Part shown: piece after piece, positions 28,437 to 49,976 of the stretch
How the letters are laid out: each line of letters begins with the position of its first letter
Position numbering within the stretch: the stretch's first letter is position 1
Assembly (NCBI GenBank): GCA_009692155.1
Contig: SHZW01000001.1
Location: 124,001 to 188,000, forward strand
Direction of reading: 5' to 3'
Length of the DNA: 64,000 nucleotides
Origin: Nitrospiraceae bacterium
Lineage (GTDB): Bacteria; Nitrospirota; Nitrospiria; Nitrospirales; Nitrospiraceae
Notes under the pieces: generated by a model
What the model was told of the DNA's origin: nothing
Database searches by the model: none
Seen by the model: the letters and a program-made list of their open reading frames with translations, nothing else
Position numbers and translations under genes: made by a program

Positions 28437-28889
28437 GTGAAAAAAGAAACATTACAGTCAATCGGCATGGCCGGTGGCATCATCGGATTAGCGGCGGCGG
28501 CAGCCTGGATGGGTCTGGCCCACGGCTGCGAGGCACCCAACGCGCAGAGCACCATCACCGGGCGTGTCACCATCGCGCCTGAACTGGCCTCCAAGGTCAG
28601 CCCGACCGACACGCTGTTCGTCATCGTCCGCCGGCCGGGCGGCGCGCCCCGGCCGCTGGCTGCCAAACGTATTGACGGGCCTCAGTTTCCAGTCAGCTTT
28701 GAGATTACCAGCGCTGACGTGATGGTCCAGGGCACGGAGCTGCGCGGCATGGTGGATTTGATCGCCCGTGTGGACAAGGACGGAAAGGCAGGCCAGCCGC
28801 AACCGGGCGACATGGAAGGCCAGTACGACAAGAATCCGACGTTACCCGGTGGGAAAGACCTGGAGATTGTGATTCGGAAGGTCTACTAA
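28437..28889 (+). CDS. membrane-anchored protein with CcmH/CycH C-terminal-like domain
   Basis: A 150-residue protein beginning at a GTG after GAGAGGAAG. A hydrophobic N-terminal segment (MAGGIIGLAAAAAWMGLA) is followed by a short cysteine-containing stretch. The soluble part (GRVTIAPELASKVSPTDTLF, then VIVRRPGGAPRPLAAKRI and PQPGDMEGQYDKNP) matches the periplasmic C-terminal domain of cytochrome c maturation protein CcmH/CycH. The TPR part of that protein is missing, so it is a stand-alone domain; its partner is unknown. Confidence 0.75.
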   Translation: MKKETLQSIGMAGGIIGLAAAAAWMGLAHGCEAPNAQSTITGRVTIAPELASKVSPTDTLFVIVRRPGGAPRPLAAKRIDGPQFPVSFEITSADVMVQGTELRGMVDLIARVDKDGKAGQPQPGDMEGQYDKNPTLPGGKDLEIVIRKVY

Positions 28890-28900
28890 AAACGGAGCGG

Positions 28901-28979
28901 CGTCGAAAGTCTATCAAGTCCGTAAAGTCATCAAGTCAGAAGACTTTATGACTTGAAGACTTTTCGACTTTCAGACTTA
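28901..28979. repeat. word-repeat inverted structure, word AAGTC
   Basis: The left arm (28903-28936) repeats AAGTC with short spacers on the plus strand and the right arm (28943-28979) repeats GACTT, its complement. The two arms face each other around a 6-base centre. It lies between two convergent genes and overlaps the end of the HNH gene, so it may work as a bidirectional transcript end. The same word is used at 45278-45362. Confidence 0.8.
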
Positions 28980-32192: not shown

Positions 32193-32314
32193 AGGATGTT
32201 CAAAAAGGTCGTCCAGCAAGGCCGCAGCAAGCAAAGGGTCGAAGCGTACGTTTTTCGGTACGTTGAGAACCTGAGCGATGCGAGAACGCAGCTGGCGGCC
32301 TTTTTCAACATCCT
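32193..32314. repeat. 122-bp inverted-repeat element, copy C
   Basis: The left arm AGGATGTTCAAAAAGG (continuing to 32217) and the right arm ending TTTTTCAACATCCT (32291-32314) are imperfect inverted copies of about 24 bases. The centre has GCGTAC...GTACG, a second small palindrome. Its length and layout equal the element at 33914-34035. It fills the gap between the ferredoxin gene and moaB. Confidence 0.8.
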
Positions 32315-32335
32315 TGCACACTGAGCAGTCAAGCC

Positions 32336-32848
32336 ATGGCCCTCTCCACCCCCCACGAGCATAAAGAACAGGCCCCCCGCCAAGCGGGCTGTGTTGTCAT
32401 TACCTGTAGCGATACCCGCACGCCCGAGTCTGACACCAGCGGCTACCACATCATGCACATGCTCAAGGACGCCGGCCACACCGTCGTGTCCTACCAGCTT
32501 GTCAAAGACGAGCCGTCGAAGATCAAATCCGCGATCAAGAAGGCTGTCACGAACAAGAAAGTCCAAGTCATCATCATCAACGGCGGGACAGGCATTGCCA
32601 AGCGGGATTCAACGTTTGAAGCGGTGGACGGAATGCTGGAAAAGAGGCTTGATGGATTCGGCGAGATCTTTCGCTACCTGACCTATCAGGAGATCGGCTC
32701 CCCCGCCATCATGACGCGGGCAACCGCCGGCACCTACAAAGGACGGATCATCTTTTCAACTCCAGGCTCCGAAAACGCCGTCCGTCTCGCGATGGAGAAG
32801 CTCATCCTCCCCGAACTCGGCCACATCCTACAGCAGTTAAGCAAATAA
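32336..32848 (+). CDS. moaB: MoaB/Mog-type molybdopterin adenylyltransferase
   Basis: A 170-residue protein of the MoaB/MogA family, which adenylates molybdopterin in molybdenum cofactor synthesis. CVVITCSDTRTPESDTSG and INGGTGIAKRDSTFEAV are the family motifs, and FSTPGSENAVRLAMEKLILPEL ends the fold. No other moa gene is nearby. Confidence 0.9.
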   Translation: MALSTPHEHKEQAPRQAGCVVITCSDTRTPESDTSGYHIMHMLKDAGHTVVSYQLVKDEPSKIKSAIKKAVTNKKVQVIIINGGTGIAKRDSTFEAVDGMLEKRLDGFGEIFRYLTYQEIGSPAIMTRATAGTYKGRIIFSTPGSENAVRLAMEKLILPELGHILQQLSK

Positions 32849-32893
32849 AGTTCCTGACACCTCTTCTCTGTCTTCTTTCTCTGATCACTACTG

Positions 32894-33400
32894 TCATATA
32901 TCAATTCCGATAACGTAGATAAGTAGTTGGATAGCGCTCTTAAAATGGGGAAGATATTTAGCTACTTTCTCAAAGGTGAGACTGCCCGCCCATTTTTTAT
33001 TGTATTGAGTCTTCATTTGTTTCTGAAATGACTTGGTTGTAGTGATATAGATGCCTAAGTCAATCTGATCAAGTGCTGAATACGAAGAAACCTGAAACTT
33101 GAGAAGATCTATTCCAAGGAAACTCGCGTGCCCAAAGCCAACCTCAATCCCCACCCGCTCCTCGAGAAAGTCCATGCGGGCTGAAGGTTCGTCGTCGTCC
33201 TGAAACACATCAGGCTGATCCTTCCATCCCTTGGCAACGAAAAGATCTTTAAGGACTTTGTTGAATGTTGGTCTGGAGAGGCTTGGAATTTTGATCGATG
33301 GCTCAGTTAAAATATCTTCGATTTCCTGTTTGATCGCAAGCTTGCTATTGAGCACTTGATCAGCGAAACGAAATGAAAACCTCTCAAGTCTTAATCTCAT
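32894..33400 (-). CDS. BglII/BstYI-like restriction endonuclease, no methylase nearby
   Basis: A 168-residue protein resembling the BglII/BstYI family of type II restriction enzymes. The presumed catalytic centre has Asp77 and Glu86 in MDFLEERVGIEVGFGH, with the same nine-residue separation as Asp84/Glu93 reported for BglII. LSRPTFNKVLKDLFVAKGWK and FQVSSYSALDQIDLGIYIT are further family-like segments. The gene is clearly more AT-rich than its neighbours, suggesting transfer. Two AGATCT sites (33105 and 33243) lie within it. No DNA methyltransferase is encoded in the window. Confidence 0.7.
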   Translation of the reverse strand: MRLRLERFSFRFADQVLNSKLAIKQEIEDILTEPSIKIPSLSRPTFNKVLKDLFVAKGWKDQPDVFQDDDEPSARMDFLEERVGIEVGFGHASFLGIDLLKFQVSSYSALDQIDLGIYITTTKSFQKQMKTQYNKKWAGSLTFEKVAKYLPHFKSAIQLLIYVIGIDI

Positions 33401-33425
33401 ATCGCGTCTTGCCAGCTATTAATTA

Positions 33426-33450
33426 AGAATGCTCAAAATGGCCAGCCAAC
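33426..33450. repeat. half copy of the 122-bp element (left arm only)
   Basis: Bases 33426-33450 closely match the left arm of the element at 33914 (GAATGCTCAAAATGGC versus GGATGCTCAAAATGGC, then AGCCAAC versus AGCCCAAC). No right arm follows; the sequence turns directly into a CGTCAC/CGTTACG word repeat at 33456-33482. Confidence 0.65.
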
Positions 33451-33455
33451 GAAAC

Positions 33456-33482
33456 CATACCCGTCACTCGTTACGCATCACG
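33456..33482. repeat. one-armed word repeat, word CGTNAC
   Basis: CCGTCACTCGTTACGCATCA repeats the CGTNAC word with drift. It resembles the left arm at 51037-51069. It lies just past the repaired stop of the CBS gene and beside the half copy of the 122-bp element. Confidence 0.5.
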
Positions 33483-33486
33483 GTTT

Positions 33487-33887
33487 TTAGTCCTGCGTGA
33501 TCTTCGGTTCCGAGAACCTCTGCTGCGCCACCAGCAAATCCCGCACGGAGACCATCCCATGATCTTCCCGTTTTCGGTCACACCGAAGTGCCGGACGCCA
33601 AGGTCACCCATCATATCGCTGGCGTCCTGCACAGACCGGCTGGCTTCAATGCTCTTGATCGGAAAGGTCATGATCTTCTCGACGGTGAGATTTCCCAGCG
33701 CCGCCCCGGTGGCGACGGCCTTCCGCACCACGTCCGTCTCCGTCACAATCCCGACCAACTCCCCCTTCTTTTCCACAAACAAGGAGCCGATTTTCTCGGC
33801 GCTCATTTTGCCGGCTACATCGTTCACTGTTGTCGTGTGCGGCACCTTCTTGAGCGCACGTCTCATGGCCTCAGCGACTGTAGACAT
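33487..33887 (-). pseudogene. tandem CBS-domain protein, single-base frameshift near the 3' end
   Basis: The ATG at 33887 follows AAGGAGG. Two CBS domains are readable: IGSLFVEKKGELVGIVTETD and then LGVRHFGVTENGKIMG. After that the frame is lost. Adding one G to the GGG at 33556-33558 restores MVSVRDLLVAQQRFSEPKI, ending at TAA 33487-33489, which matches the VRDL ending of the paralog at 8660-9052. Unrepaired, the protein would end in an Arg/Trp-rich tail down to 33471. Sequence error or recent mutation are both possible. Confidence 0.78.
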
Positions 33888-33913
33888 TGCGTCCTCCTTA
33901 TTCTTCACATCTA

Positions 33914-34035
33914 AGGATGCTCAAAATGGCAGCCCAACGAGGCCGCAGGGAGCCCACGACTGAGGCGTGCCCTCTGGGGCACGTCGCAAGGAGATGGACG
34001 ACCGAGAACAAAGTTGGGGGCCGTTTTCAGCATCC
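33914..34035. repeat. 122-bp inverted-repeat element, copy D
   Basis: The left arm AGGATGCTCAAAATGGC (33914-33930, extending to about 33938) is mirrored by GTTGGGGGCCGTTTTCAGCA, then TCC, ending at 34035. The central hairpin GTGCCC/GGGCAC encloses TCT. The layout equals copy C at 32193-32314, though the sequence differs. It begins 27 bases upstream of the CBS start and ends at the MDR gene stop. Confidence 0.8.
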
Positions 34036-34036
34036 G

Positions 34037-35065
34037 TTAAACTGTCAACACCAACTTCCCGAATAACTTCCGACTTAACATCTGCTCCTGCGCCGCCCGC
34101 GCTTCCTGGAGCGGATAGACACGGTCAATCACAGGCGTGAGCTTCCCCGCCCCGACCAGCTTGGCCGCTTCCAGCAACTCGGCCTTCGTGCCCAGGTAGG
34201 AGCCCTTGAGCGTCAGGTGGCGCGAGTAGAGATAACGTAAATCTATCTCGGCCTTGGCGCCGGTCGTCGCGCCGCAGGTCACCAGCCGCCCTCCTTTTGC
34301 CAGCGATTTCAAACACTGGTCCCAGACTTGAGGTCCGATATGCTCGATGACAACATCTACCCCCTGGCCGCCGGTCAATTCAAATACCCGTTTGGCCATA
34401 TCGTCGGTCGCGTGGTTGATGACCTCATCGGCGCCAATCACAAGCGCTTTCTTGACCTTCTCTTCCGATCCGACCGTCGTGATGACTTTTGCGCCGATGT
34501 ACTTGGCGATTTGAATGGCCATGCTGCCGACCCCGCTGCCGGCTCCCATGATCAGCGCCGTTTCGCCGTGGCGCAACCAACCCAGCGTCACCACCATGTG
34601 CCAGGCCGTCACAGAGACGAGCGGAAAAGCCGCCGCCTGTTCGAATGTCAGCGAGCCTGGAATAGCGATCACGTTGGTCCCAGGCACCGCGACGAACTCG
34701 GCATAGCCGCCGTCGGTCTTGGCCCCGAACACACCGAACGAGGGGCACAGGTTGTCGTGACCGACCTTGCACTCGTCGCAGTTCCCGCAGTTCAGCCCCG
34801 GCGAGACGAAGACTTTTTGCCCGACCTTGACGCCCCACACCTGGCTTCCGACCCGCTCGATCTGCCCGGCCACATCACAGCCGGAGATATGCGGCAAGGG
34901 AATCTGATAGGCGGGAATCCCCTGCCGAATCCAGATATCCAGATGGTTCAGCGCACAGGCCTTGACGCGGACCAGCACTTCGTCCGGCTTGATCTGCGGG
35001 TCAGGCCGGTCTTCGTACTTCAGCTTCTCCGGCCCGCCATGTTCATGGAAAACAACGGCTTTCAT
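34037..35065 (-). CDS. zinc-containing MDR alcohol dehydrogenase / quinone oxidoreductase
   Basis: A 342-residue medium-chain dehydrogenase/reductase. The structural-zinc lobe shows CGNCDECKVGHDNLC, and GCDVAGQIERVG and the NAD(P)-binding GAGSGVGSMAIQIAKYIGAK are present. The substrate-binding end VYPLQEARAAQEQMLSRKLF is typical of zinc-binding dehydrogenases. The substrate is unknown. Confidence 0.88.
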   Translation of the reverse strand: MKAVVFHEHGGPEKLKYEDRPDPQIKPDEVLVRVKACALNHLDIWIRQGIPAYQIPLPHISGCDVAGQIERVGSQVWGVKVGQKVFVSPGLNCGNCDECKVGHDNLCPSFGVFGAKTDGGYAEFVAVPGTNVIAIPGSLTFEQAAAFPLVSVTAWHMVVTLGWLRHGETALIMGAGSGVGSMAIQIAKYIGAKVITTVGSEEKVKKALVIGADEVINHATDDMAKRVFELTGGQGVDVVIEHIGPQVWDQCLKSLAKGGRLVTCGATTGAKAEIDLRYLYSRHLTLKGSYLGTKAELLEAAKLVGAGKLTPVIDRVYPLQEARAAQEQMLSRKLFGKLVLTV

Positions 35066-35085
35066 AACTCGCTTTCGCTCATAGC

Positions 35086-35169
35086 AGGTTCGAGGTTCTG
35101 GGTTCGAGGTACGAGGTATGCGAAAAACATCCCACCACGAACCTCGTACCCCGTTACCTCGCTACCCTG
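35086..35169. repeat. word-repeat inverted structure, word CGAGGT
   Basis: The left arm (35086-35117) repeats TTCGAGGT and ACGAGGT; the right arm (35137-35169) repeats ACCTCGTA and TTACCTCG. The same word family occurs at 40410-40539. A hairpin ACCCTG/CAGGGT (35164-35180) at the PhzF stop adjoins it and may end the PhzF transcript. Confidence 0.8.
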
Positions 35170-35171
35170 TT

Positions 35172-45444: not shown

Positions 45445-46716
45445 GTGCATACTTCCCTTAGAATGCCGCCCGTGACACCGCAAGAAGCCAAGACCCATTA
45501 CAATTACCTGATGACCCTCTGCATCCGGAAGGAAGAGGCCTTCGGGCCGCTGGCATTCACTTTCATGAAGGAGCACGACCTGGATAAGCTTGGGCTCGCG
45601 CCGGAGGAGCAGTTCAATCTCTATATGGCGACCTCCGACGCCTTTGCGGCTGAGCCGAAACGCTACACACACAAACTCGAGTGTTTACAGAAAGCCCAGC
45701 AGCTTCTCCCCCGCACCCAGTTTGCCGATCCAGAACTCACCCGCCACCTGTTTCAGGAAGTCCAAAAAACGTCGGCCGAACTGGACATCTACAACGAGGC
45801 GATGCGCCCACCAAAGCTGTCCGCAGCGACGGCAGGGACGGCCGATAAACTCCGCCTCATCGTCGAAACCGATCTCCCGGATTATTTTTTGGACACCGCG
45901 CAGAAACAGGCCTCCGCCTACTACCAGAACAAATACAAGATGACGAAAGAAGCCAAGGCGGCGCAGCACTTCACGAACGCCGCGCGCAAGTTCGAGCCGG
46001 ACAACCAGGCCGTGCAAAAAGAATTTGCCGGCGCTTGTGCGCCCTTCATGAGCGTGCGCACGAGCGGCATCCATCTCATGCTGCCGTTCGATCTGAAGAT
46101 CAGCCGGACTCCGGATGAGCCGCTCGAAGCCGGCCTGCGCATCTGGTACGCGAAGATGGGCTACTCGTTTCCGCTGCGCTACGAGATGGGCAAGCTCTGC
46201 AGCTGGTACGACGATCGGGTGGTGGACATCGCGATGGACGATCCACACTTACTGTTCGTGTCCGTCTCGCCGGTGAAGGAAACGGAACTGGGGACAGTGG
46301 GCCGCGCGCTACCCAACGATGTCCCGATGGAGATCGGCCTGCCTCGGGCCTTTCTGGACGGCACGAACGGGCTGGGGCCATTCATCCAGGTCGTCTGCAA
46401 TGTCAAAATCTGGTTCGACGCGGAGGCGATGTCCGTCCTGATCCAGGGCGCGCCGGATCTCCACGAGTACGGATTGCAGGGCGGCGCCGGTTTGCTGACA
46501 CGCACCTACGCGTCGGAGAAAATTCAGGCCTATGCGCCCTCCTCCGGCAAACCGTGGCAGCAGGGGCTCAGCTTCAACTTCGTCAACATGCACCTGCAAC
46601 TGGCACAGGGAGTGGACACGGCGCTCGTCCCCTTCAATACGCCGATCTTTTCGATCTACCCGGTGCTCACGCGGCAGAGCTTCAAATTCGAAGACGCACG
46701 AACCCTGGAAGGGTAA
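45445..46716 (+). CDS. conserved-looking protein of unknown function
   Basis: A 423-residue soluble protein starting at a GTG. The first 190 residues look helical and TPR-like (LDKLGLAPEEQFNLYMATSD, HKLECLQKAQQLLP). The C-terminal half is beta-rich (SGIHLMLPFDLKISRTPDEP, YSFPLRYEMGKLCSWYDD, FIQVVCNVKIWFDAEAMSVL). No signal peptide is seen. No family is recognised. It stands upstream of the threonine aldolase gene with a repeat between them. Confidence 0.75.
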   Translation: MHTSLRMPPVTPQEAKTHYNYLMTLCIRKEEAFGPLAFTFMKEHDLDKLGLAPEEQFNLYMATSDAFAAEPKRYTHKLECLQKAQQLLPRTQFADPELTRHLFQEVQKTSAELDIYNEAMRPPKLSAATAGTADKLRLIVETDLPDYFLDTAQKQASAYYQNKYKMTKEAKAAQHFTNAARKFEPDNQAVQKEFAGACAPFMSVRTSGIHLMLPFDLKISRTPDEPLEAGLRIWYAKMGYSFPLRYEMGKLCSWYDDRVVDIAMDDPHLLFVSVSPVKETELGTVGRALPNDVPMEIGLPRAFLDGTNGLGPFIQVVCNVKIWFDAEAMSVLIQGAPDLHEYGLQGGAGLLTRTYASEKIQAYAPSSGKPWQQGLSFNFVNMHLQLAQGVDTALVPFNTPIFSIYPVLTRQSFKFEDARTLEG

Positions 46717-46721
46717 AGTAT

Positions 46722-46805
46722 GATTTGGTGATTGGGTGATCTGGCGAAGTATTGATTCTCGGATCAGGACTTCACCAAATCACCAACTCACCAGATCACC
46801 AAATC
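46722..46805. repeat. word-repeat inverted structure, word TTGGTGAT
   Basis: The left arm (46722-46750) reads TTGGTGATTGGGTGATCTGG and the right arm (46769-46805) repeats ACCAAATC, ACCAACTC and ACCAGATC. The arms face each other. It ends 4 bases before the threonine aldolase start codon, so it would place a strong hairpin over the ribosome binding region. Confidence 0.8.
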
Positions 46806-46809
46806 GAAC

Positions 46810-47838
46810 ATGATCGATCTCAGAAGCGACACCGTCACCAAACCCTCCGAGGCCATGCGCCAGGCCATGGCGCGCGCCGAGGTAGGCGACGACGTCTACG
46901 GCGAAGACCCGACGGTCAATCGGCTGCAGGACATGGGCGCGGCCCTGGTCGGCAAGGCTGTCGCGCTGTTTGTCCCATCCGGCACGATGGCAAATCAGCT
47001 CGCGCTCCGTGCGCAAGCCCAGCCGGGCCAGGAAGTGATCGTCGAAAGCCGGTCCCATATGGTGCGCTACGAACAGGGCGCGGGAGGCGCGCTGGCTGGA
47101 GTGCAATTCCATTGGGTGCCCGGCGAGCACGGCATCATGACATCGGAGCAGGTCGAGGCCGCCATCCGGCCCAAAGACCCCCACACGATCCAGACCGCGC
47201 TCATCTGCGTCGAGAACACCCATAACAGTGGCGGCGGCACGATCTACCCCTTGGCAACCATCGAGCGGATCGGCGCCATTGCCAGGCAGCGCGGTCTTCC
47301 CATGCACCTGGATGGAGCGCGGCTCTTCAACGCCGTCGTCGCCACGGGCACCTCCGCCACGGAATATGCGAAACATTTCACGACCGTCTCGTTCTGCCTG
47401 TCGAAAGGCCTCGGCGCGCCGGCCGGCTCGCTGATCGCCACAAACGACCGGGACATGCTGGAAAAGCTTCGCCGGTTCCGCCGCATGTATGGCGGGGGCA
47501 TGCGCCAGGCCGGCGTACTGGCCGCGGCCGGCATCTTCGCGCTGGAGCACAATATCGCCCGGCTCAAAGAAGACCACGACCATGCGAAGCGTCTCGCCCA
47601 CCTCCTGGCACAGATTCCGGCCGTCACGCTCGATCTCAAATCCGTCGAAACGAACATCATCTTCTTCGACGTCAAATCGAGCCGCTCCCCTGCCGACCTC
47701 GTCGCCGCCTTGAAAGCCGAGGGCCTGCTGATCAATGCCGTGGGCGGGAACACCTACCGGGCCGTCACCCACCTCGACGTGTCCGCGGACGACATTGACC
47801 GTGCCGGGCAGATCTTCGCCGGCACGCTGGCGAAATGA
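46810..47838 (+). CDS. ltaE: low-specificity L-threonine aldolase
   Basis: PLP enzyme that cleaves threonine or allo-threonine to glycine and acetaldehyde. It starts MIDLRSDTVTKPSEAMRQAM, the typical N-terminus. VGDDVYGEDPTVNRLQ, HLDGARLFNAVVATG and the PLP lysine in SFCLSKGLGAPAGS follow. Length 342 is normal. Confidence 0.94.
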   Translation: MIDLRSDTVTKPSEAMRQAMARAEVGDDVYGEDPTVNRLQDMGAALVGKAVALFVPSGTMANQLALRAQAQPGQEVIVESRSHMVRYEQGAGGALAGVQFHWVPGEHGIMTSEQVEAAIRPKDPHTIQTALICVENTHNSGGGTIYPLATIERIGAIARQRGLPMHLDGARLFNAVVATGTSATEYAKHFTTVSFCLSKGLGAPAGSLIATNDRDMLEKLRRFRRMYGGGMRQAGVLAAAGIFALEHNIARLKEDHDHAKRLAHLLAQIPAVTLDLKSVETNIIFFDVKSSRSPADLVAALKAEGLLINAVGGNTYRAVTHLDVSADDIDRAGQIFAGTLAK

Positions 47839-49645: not shown

Positions 49646-49882
49646 ATGGCGACCAAAGCCTATATTTTGATCAAGGTCAAGACCGGCAAGACCAAGGACG
49701 CGGTCAAGGCACTGCGAAAAATTCCCGGCGTCGAACGGGCCGACCCCTGCTTCGGACGCCCTGATGTATTCGTATTTGTCGAGGTGGGAGACGAAAAAGC
49801 GCTGTCGGACGTGGTGATCTCGAAAATTCACACGATCGATGGCGTCGAAGAAACCGACACGCACATCGTCGCGGACGCCTGA
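49646..49882 (+). CDS. stand-alone Lrp/AsnC ligand-binding (RAM) domain protein
   Basis: A 78-residue protein consisting only of the RAM domain of Lrp/AsnC regulators (MATKAYILIKVKTGKTKDAV, GRPDVFVFVEVGDEKALSD). No DNA-binding helix-turn-helix is present. AAGGAGG precedes the ATG. Such stand-alone domains bind amino acids and may modulate full-length regulators. Confidence 0.88.
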   Translation: MATKAYILIKVKTGKTKDAVKALRKIPGVERADPCFGRPDVFVFVEVGDEKALSDVVISKIHTIDGVEETDTHIVADA

Positions 49883-49885
49883 AAC

Positions 49886-49976
49886 CAATGCAAAATGTAA
49901 AATGCAAAATTAAAAATTGCGCGGGCCGACGTTCCTCGAATTCCAACTTTGCATTTTGCATTTTAACTTTTCATTG
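49886..49976. repeat. word-repeat inverted structure, word GCAAAAT
   Basis: The left arm (49886-49919) repeats GCAAAATG and AAAATTAAAA; the right arm (49944-49976) repeats TTTGCATT and TTTTAACTT. It lies between two convergent genes, a position suited to a shared terminator. Confidence 0.8.

Follow-up and report, generated by a model that had tools for sequence, protein, structure and literature searches.

In the GTAG-tagged REPs, which measure 20-40 bp and are linked to RAYT genes, the GTAG terminus often supplies the flanking gene with its TAG stop codon, according to the sections of Di Nocera et al. 2013 (PMC3733652) that deal with them. The same paper describes CGTC-tagged REPs, short palindromes without a dedicated transposase, as well as TIRtrons, the terminal inverted repeats of tyrosine transposases, which are longer, in some cases self-complementary, and form moderately abundant families. 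From the enterobacteria, ERIC (RU-1, 127 bp) and YPAL (RU-2, 168 bp) are known; in the relevant parts of PMC2229807, such elements typically have a terminal TA motif and target duplications, and YPAL, which lacks the TA, was judged to be mobile from empty and filled sites. In the spacers of Geobacter, palindrome families and families of short direct repeats have been reported (PMC2700814, PMC2996986), among them a multicopy intergenic family of G. metallireducens with the central palindrome GRCGTAGCGCTGCTACGCC (PMC2700814); the passages of the two papers on these families make no mention of stop-codon placement.

Here we describe a palindromic element of about 122 nt, two copies of which (e1 and e2) lie in a 64,000-nt stretch of a Nitrospiraceae genome, the whole of which is called the window below. 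We consider it fairly probable, at roughly 60%, that e1 and e2 are copies of a non-autonomous mobile repeat in the manner of REP and ERIC. Like the GTAG REPs, as far as the sections cited describe them (PMC3733652), the element is palindromic, dispersed, tagged at one foot and located near gene 3′ ends; unlike them, it is 122 nt long, is tagged by TARC or TGAC, has another host range and is accompanied by no RAYT gene in its own genome. The 5′ foot of its hairpin reads TAGC, TAAC, TGAC or the like in place of GTAG, and no RAYT gene flanked by repeats was found in its own genome (G000) or in G010, a genome of the same order. With the CGTC-tagged REPs of the same source it shares a tagged palindrome that lacks a dedicated transposase, but those are short and their tag is different. 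It resembles ERIC and YPAL in length class, palindromic structure and intergenic location (PMC2229807), whereas a terminal TA and target duplications are not constant in it, and the likeness is one of description. The GRCGTAGCGCTGCTACGCC palindrome of G. metallireducens, also compared by description, resembles the central hairpin of our element, GRCGTAC...GTACGCC, and that family may be a relative. TIRtrons flank a transposase gene, whereas the element showed no such arrangement in the Y1 loci examined. In the broad sense the element is REP-like, being multicopy, extragenic, palindromic and conserved in its pairing, with one insertion at a coding end (L355). We read this as a new REP/ERIC-like family: the kind is already known, and what sets it apart is how precisely it is placed, how widely it has spread and that no mover was found. 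The sections consulted of the literature on Nitrospira and Nitrospirota, Desulfobacterota, Geobacter repeats, REP, ERIC, MITE and RAYT, and stop-codon or terminator hairpins contain no description of the family, and a literature text search with the core DNA string of the element returned no occurrence.

Structure and distribution of the element family

The features around the two elements are listed in Table 1. Both elements begin with AGGATG and end with CATCCT (e1) or CATCCG (e2), and they are homologous, since nhmmer with e1 as the query recovered e2 at an E-value of 2.9e-7 in the DNA collected at that stage. Each folds better than all 200 of its dinucleotide shuffles (z = −5.5 for e1 and −3.4 for e2), so that the two palindromes of about 122 bp described in an earlier note on this DNA are real. 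e1 is flanked by a ferredoxin-like gene and by moaB, with no stop codon on its foot side; e2 lies between the ADH-like gene and the CBS-domain gene and, when read on the minus strand, begins right behind the TAA codon of the former.

Table 1. Features of the window at and around the two elements.
Feature	Position in the window	Strand	Remarks
Element e1	32193..32314	+	122 nt; sub-type A; GAGCGATGCGAGAAC in right half
moaB-like molybdopterin-binding gene	32336..32848	+	start 21 nt past e1
BglII-type restriction endonuclease homologue	32894..33400	−	patchy among relatives; outside element
Half copy (left arm only), putative relic	33424..33452	+	behind CBS gene
CBS-domain gene	33471..33908	−	downstream of e2
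Element e2	33914..34036 (end 34035/34036)	+	about 122 nt; sub-type B; GCAGGGAGC and CGACCGAGAAC
TAA stop codon of ADH-like gene	34037..34039	−	TAAC foot of e2 when taken together with C 34036
Zinc-dependent alcohol dehydrogenase-like (ADH-like) gene	34037..35065	−	e2 at gene end

The earlier note had the elements flanking an apparently acquired restriction gene. Acquisition of this gene, which lies between moaB and the CBS gene, does appear likely, because homologues of the BglII type are patchy, being present in 5 of the 61 genomes sampled from the order (own included) and in neither congener (G001, 95% complete; G002, 76% complete). No methyltransferase was detected among the six neighbouring proteins that were scanned. 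No link between the elements and the gene emerged, and the idea that they specifically bracket it has to be given up: copies located at stop codons follow proteins of 70 different clusters. The left-arm-only copy of the note is real, with an identity over its 29 nt of 86% to e2 and 69% to e1, although it is absent from the strong covariance-model matches given below, and the stretch around it (33380-33500) did not fold beyond chance in the shuffle test (z = −0.7). Because a comparable remnant, of the right end, persists in G001 behind the gene corresponding to the CBS gene, we take the half copy for a relic belonging to the end of that gene and not to the restriction gene, of which no homologue was found in G001. 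Near its C-terminus (33471-33600, minus strand) the CBS gene has an apparent frameshift relative to G001, due to either mutation or assembly error. The G001 assembly itself has N runs within the CBS gene and within one element (loci L167 and L115), so that some half copies there may be gaps; the element can thus disturb assembly.

The claim that the arms co-vary to keep their pairing is right. In an alignment of 22 own-genome copies, 17 of the 34 pairs showed paired changes on both sides; the double-change cells numbered 49, compared to 14.4 after shuffling and 7-14 when the partners were slid, and pairing was kept in 95.6% of 735 cells. The stretches GGCCGCAG and CGAGAAC are conserved and largely unpaired, the outer stem holds a nearly constant C/A mismatch, and an A-run and T-run (columns 10-13 with 116-119), next to the inner GC-rich stem, are almost invariant while several other stem pairs co-vary. 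A stem followed by a T-run is present on both strands, and the most common length is 122 nt (38 of 120 copies). Copying templated by the arms was hinted at by six close copies in G168, a class-level relative, the stem differences of which are almost all double changes, but was dropped as a general rule when the count for 110 within-genome pairs, taken from other genomes, came to 126 double and 217 one-sided stem changes.

Further copies were sought with a covariance model built on the 22 aligned copies, a search that the earlier note had proposed. The own genome (1.93 Mb) contained 39 matches at E ≤1, of which 25 were strong (E <1e-16; 23 of full length, two measuring 82 nt), the next match having an E-value of 2.5e-5; blastn with e1 gave 23 matches. 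Neither of the two findings that the earlier note named as counting against it, an absence of other copies and arms that fail to co-vary, was thus obtained. In the order, 60 of 61 genomes, own included, had matches at E ≤1e-3, ranging in number from 1 to at least 58 (the latter in G010) per matching genome, and G054 was the only one of the 61 without a match. The phylum sample yielded matches in 108 of 245 genomes, weaker outside the order. Some genera include genomes almost free of the element, such as G189 (2 matches) and G250 (1 match). Copies in other classes measure about 115-124 nt and have a common core, CGTAC-loop-GTACGC, from which an exact pattern was derived that matched at least 120 stretches; among the matches listed, the titles were mostly those of Deltaproteobacteria/Desulfobacterales and similar groups, with several Nitrospirae and Pseudomonadota and one Gemmatimonadales. 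The consensus of these distant cousins has the same layout with a TGA foot. No match to the element was found in plasmids or phages, nor in viral contigs, which were searched by one exact pattern.

The family has an e1-like and an e2-like sub-type, distinguished by their inner part; other genera contain both. The median best identity of the G000 copies was 0.829 among the 23 of their own genome and 0.844 to 72 copies of other genera, in samples of unequal size. The sub-types therefore look old, judging from best matches that are equally close in other genera and at home, and no recent burst is visible in this genome, since its copies are not more alike mutually than across genera. In another genus, a tandem array of at least four elements, with both sub-types represented, lies behind the end of a CBS-like gene (L104:1501-2087). 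The co-varying structure and the conserved unpaired bases might also be expected of a family of structured non-coding RNA genes; yet an Rfam scan of the window returned one tRNA only, and copies that stand behind unrelated genes, turn over between sister species and form the tandem array make this reading very improbable.

Placement of the element behind stop codons

The main new result, absent from the earlier note, is the stop-codon placement of the element: one of its ends lies behind stop codons far above chance, and the stop is usually one shared with the empty orthologue. The informative strand is opposite to the reported one, and it is there that the start of the element follows a stop codon. 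A copy was scored as being at a stop when an open frame had its stop at −2 to 12 nt of the element; the frame had to be 100 codons or longer, or 60 where the end of the locus cut it. The sample consisted of 119 copies in loci of 59 genomes, the best-scoring copies having been fetched in most relatives. By this test 82 of the 119 copies were at a stop, 67 of them no more than 3 nt away and 48 at a distance of exactly 1 nt (one locus, also at a stop, was counted twice, as L038 and L153; the figure without the duplicate is 81 of 118), and the 82 upstream proteins form the 70 clusters mentioned above. The other end of the element was at a stop in 8 of 119 cases, and of 5950 points drawn at random from the same loci 183 (3%) were. 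Under uniform placement within the spacer, 5.8 of 57 copies would be expected within 3 nt of the stop, whereas 43 were observed.

The placement was seen in G000 (13 of 23 copies), in G010 (16 of 21) and outside the order (10 of 16), and none of the 119 copies lay inside a gene called by a simple gene finder. This finder is stricter than the frame test: with the distance limited to −2 to 3 nt, it placed 9 of the 23 G000 copies and 10 of the 21 G010 copies at stops, and among those it missed is L012:11313, which was at a stop by frame. In a separate set of 20 G001 copies, 13 passed a laxer test (55 codons; 300 nt of flank), one of the 13 (L355) being an insertion at the end of a coding frame. 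e1 and 36 other copies of the 119 were not at a stop.

Read on the informative strand, the foot of the element (TAGC, TAAC or TGAC) precedes (A)GGNTG; C occupies position −1 in 95 of the 119 copies, T position −4 in 74 and A position −3 in 78. TARC, the commonest foot, was carried by 49 of the 119 copies, 31 of which were at a stop, and of 776 TARC sites outside genes 99 are stops, about 31 of them (by subtraction) beside elements. Stops near elements were TAG in 40 cases, TAA in 19 and TGA in 14, compared to 80, 100 and 131 elsewhere. Among 61 cousins from other groups with a recognised arm and enough flank (58 more, with the arm unrecognised, were dropped), 48 had the TGA foot but only 16 were at a stop (random points, 107 of 4680), indicating that the foot motif belongs to the setting of the element generally and that the stop bias is weaker in the cousins.

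Two further comparisons were set aside. TAG-C followed by a hairpin resembles a stop-codon readthrough signal, but the offset between stop and element is 0 nt in some copies and 1 nt in others, so that no single reading frame is kept. The attC sites of integrons end in RYYYAAC and GTTRRRY and are found in cassette arrays; one foot of the element sometimes reads GTTRRRY (GTTAAAC in e2), but the other end is without the partner motif, and the copies are mostly single and beside unrelated genes, not in a cassette array.

A different account of the placement is that the element is a functional 3′-end signal, either a bidirectional intrinsic terminator or an mRNA-protecting hairpin, and that selection, not target choice, sets its position. 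The near-invariance of the A-run and T-run by the inner stem, set against the co-variation of several other stem pairs, is in line with this account. So is the orientation of the flanking genes, which were convergent in 22 cases and divergent in 8, and co-directional in the sense direction in 53 and in the opposite direction in 19, with one side uncalled in 17. At several of the same gene ends, moreover, G001 or G021 has a different palindrome behind the stop (by eye), and long hairpins behind stops are common in the own genome, where 20 of 86 spacers (each ≥60 nt long and lying away from elements) fold with z <−3 (20 shuffles each). However, the downstream gene of the same direction starts 5-40 nt away in 17 of 64 cases, e2 included, so near that silencing by a strong terminator would be expected; termination needs neither an exact 1-nt spacing nor conserved unpaired bases in the interior, and a loop of about 70 nt is unlike that of a standard terminator. 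We regard a 3′-end signal as possible, though unlikely.

Filled and empty sites in sister species

Copies of the element are dispersed, homologous and structurally constrained, and they are gained or lost between sister species. In G000 e2 stands behind the ADH stop; in G001 it is missing, the gene there ending in TGA and the next one following after 21 nt. Four other loci (L018, L011, L016 and L025) are filled in G000 and without the element in G001, one (L024) is filled in G000 and without it in G002, and the copies L012:11313 and L012:14260 are absent from the orthologous places in G001, with a possible 15-nt remnant at the latter. Other copies are common to sister species: L021 is shared with G002, L023 with G001, and L012:3007, which precedes leuA and a T-box-like leader (both named by reading), is also found in G000 and G001 alike. 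In the converse comparison, which covered 13 G001 copies with their genes all found in G000, ten had no element there, and none of the 25 strong G000 matches falls at these ten places; L337 is shared with G000 as a truncated copy, and L353 and L345 have apparent relics in G000. At L350 the element-free spacer is nearly the same in G000 and G002. The earlier note had read the co-variation as a sign of selection for structure or of a mobile replication mode and had proposed looking for empty sites in relatives; such sites exist, and this reading gains support from them, from the co-variation and from the identical G168 copies described below.

In the empty orthologues of seven loci (L336, L339, L340, L342, L344, L347 and L350) the gene stops at the same codon, and in those of three others (L025, L351 and L352) it stops 1-2 codons further on. 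That the element supplies its own stop is disfavoured, given that stops are already present in empty orthologues; three sites leave room for it, namely e2, L011 and L016, where the empty G001 orthologue has TGA and the filled gene TAA or TAG, a difference that would fit an element bringing its own TAR.

Recent movement is indicated by two 119-nt copies in G168 that are 100% identical while their 60-nt flanks are unrelated (10 copies examined). Other G168 copies are 91-97% alike, while their flanks, at identities of 0.22-0.53, are no closer than unrelated DNA, and in G010 copies on different contigs are 97.5% alike. Comparison of the flanks of copies revealed no target duplication of constant length; flanking repeats were seen at two sites only, L342 (9 bp) and L355 (5 bp). 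The inverted ends, the fixed length, the dispersal and these two repeats would suit a MITE that descends from a DDE transposon sharing its terminal repeats, but a duplication of constant length was lacking and no larger element with such ends was present among the neighbouring pairs examined, so that we hold this origin to be very unlikely. The frames between these pairs look ordinary (trpB/trpA, EVE-like, metallopeptidase-like and response regulator genes, by reading), and no autonomous transposon was found in any pair examined.

The moving agent

Tyrosine transposases of the IS200 type, including RAYT, are a candidate for the mover, with TARC in the role of a GTAG-like tag. The one-foot tag, the extragenic 3′-end placement and the TAG-supplying tags described for GTAG REPs in the sections cited of PMC3733652 speak for them. 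Y1_Tnp is present in 33 of the 61 order genomes and in 9 of 10 further genomes, and element and Y1 gene lie close together in G168 (about 0.8 kb) and at L058 (within 1 kb). The G168 locus (L319, G168:C34:9500-29400) contains at least four Y1_Tnp-like genes in 20 kb, the distance being measured to the first of them. However, no Y1_Tnp was found in G000 (89.55% complete), G001, G002 or G010 (99% complete), despite the at least 58 matches of the last; of the Y1 loci fetched, 1 of 30 in one set and 0 of 12 in another contained the element (with model R1, which has little power for distant cousins), and of 120 loci holding cousins 2 had a Y1-like frame. The presence of Y1_Tnp showed no relation to copy number by inspection, and the element has 122 nt, not 20-40. 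We consider movement by such a transposase unlikely. The searches thus give no good candidate for the moving agent; neither a transposase nor an autonomous partner was found, so that the copying itself goes unobserved. As it occurs in almost all sampled genomes of the order, has cousins elsewhere and lacks a recognised mover, the element offers a clean test system for the spread of REP- and ERIC-like repeats that have no transposase of their own.

If e1 and e2 are copies of a non-autonomous mobile repeat, some factor would recognise the extruded hairpin together with the T-R-R-C foot and copy the element to new TRRC sites, and copies at gene ends would survive best. The transcript of the upstream gene would then fold into a hairpin directly behind its stop codon, which may affect 3′-end formation, mRNA decay or ribosome release. 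The stop bias may reflect target choice, survival or both. The 1-nt spacing allows two explanations to be tested against each other, insertion directed to the stop and selection that favours a hairpin where the reading frame ends. A stronger version would have the element home actively to stop codons, with a machinery that reads the stop and the next base (UAG-C, UAA-C or UGA-C) at a terminating gene, for example in an mRNA- or R-loop-guided step, and would thereby bring the element to places where little harm is done; we think this version quite unlikely.

Long hairpins behind stops also form a second class, seen in the window at 28889-28976, 35066-35171, 46716-46810 and 49882-49970 and elsewhere at L013:5745 and L023:5340. 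They consist of degenerate direct repeats of about 7-10 nt, the unit of which varies by place (AAGTC.., CGTGATC.., GGTACGAGGT.., AAAATGC..). Palindromes like these occur, by eye, at some gene ends where the sister species has the 122-nt element, and at L358 one of them follows the first 22 nt of an apparent relic of the element.
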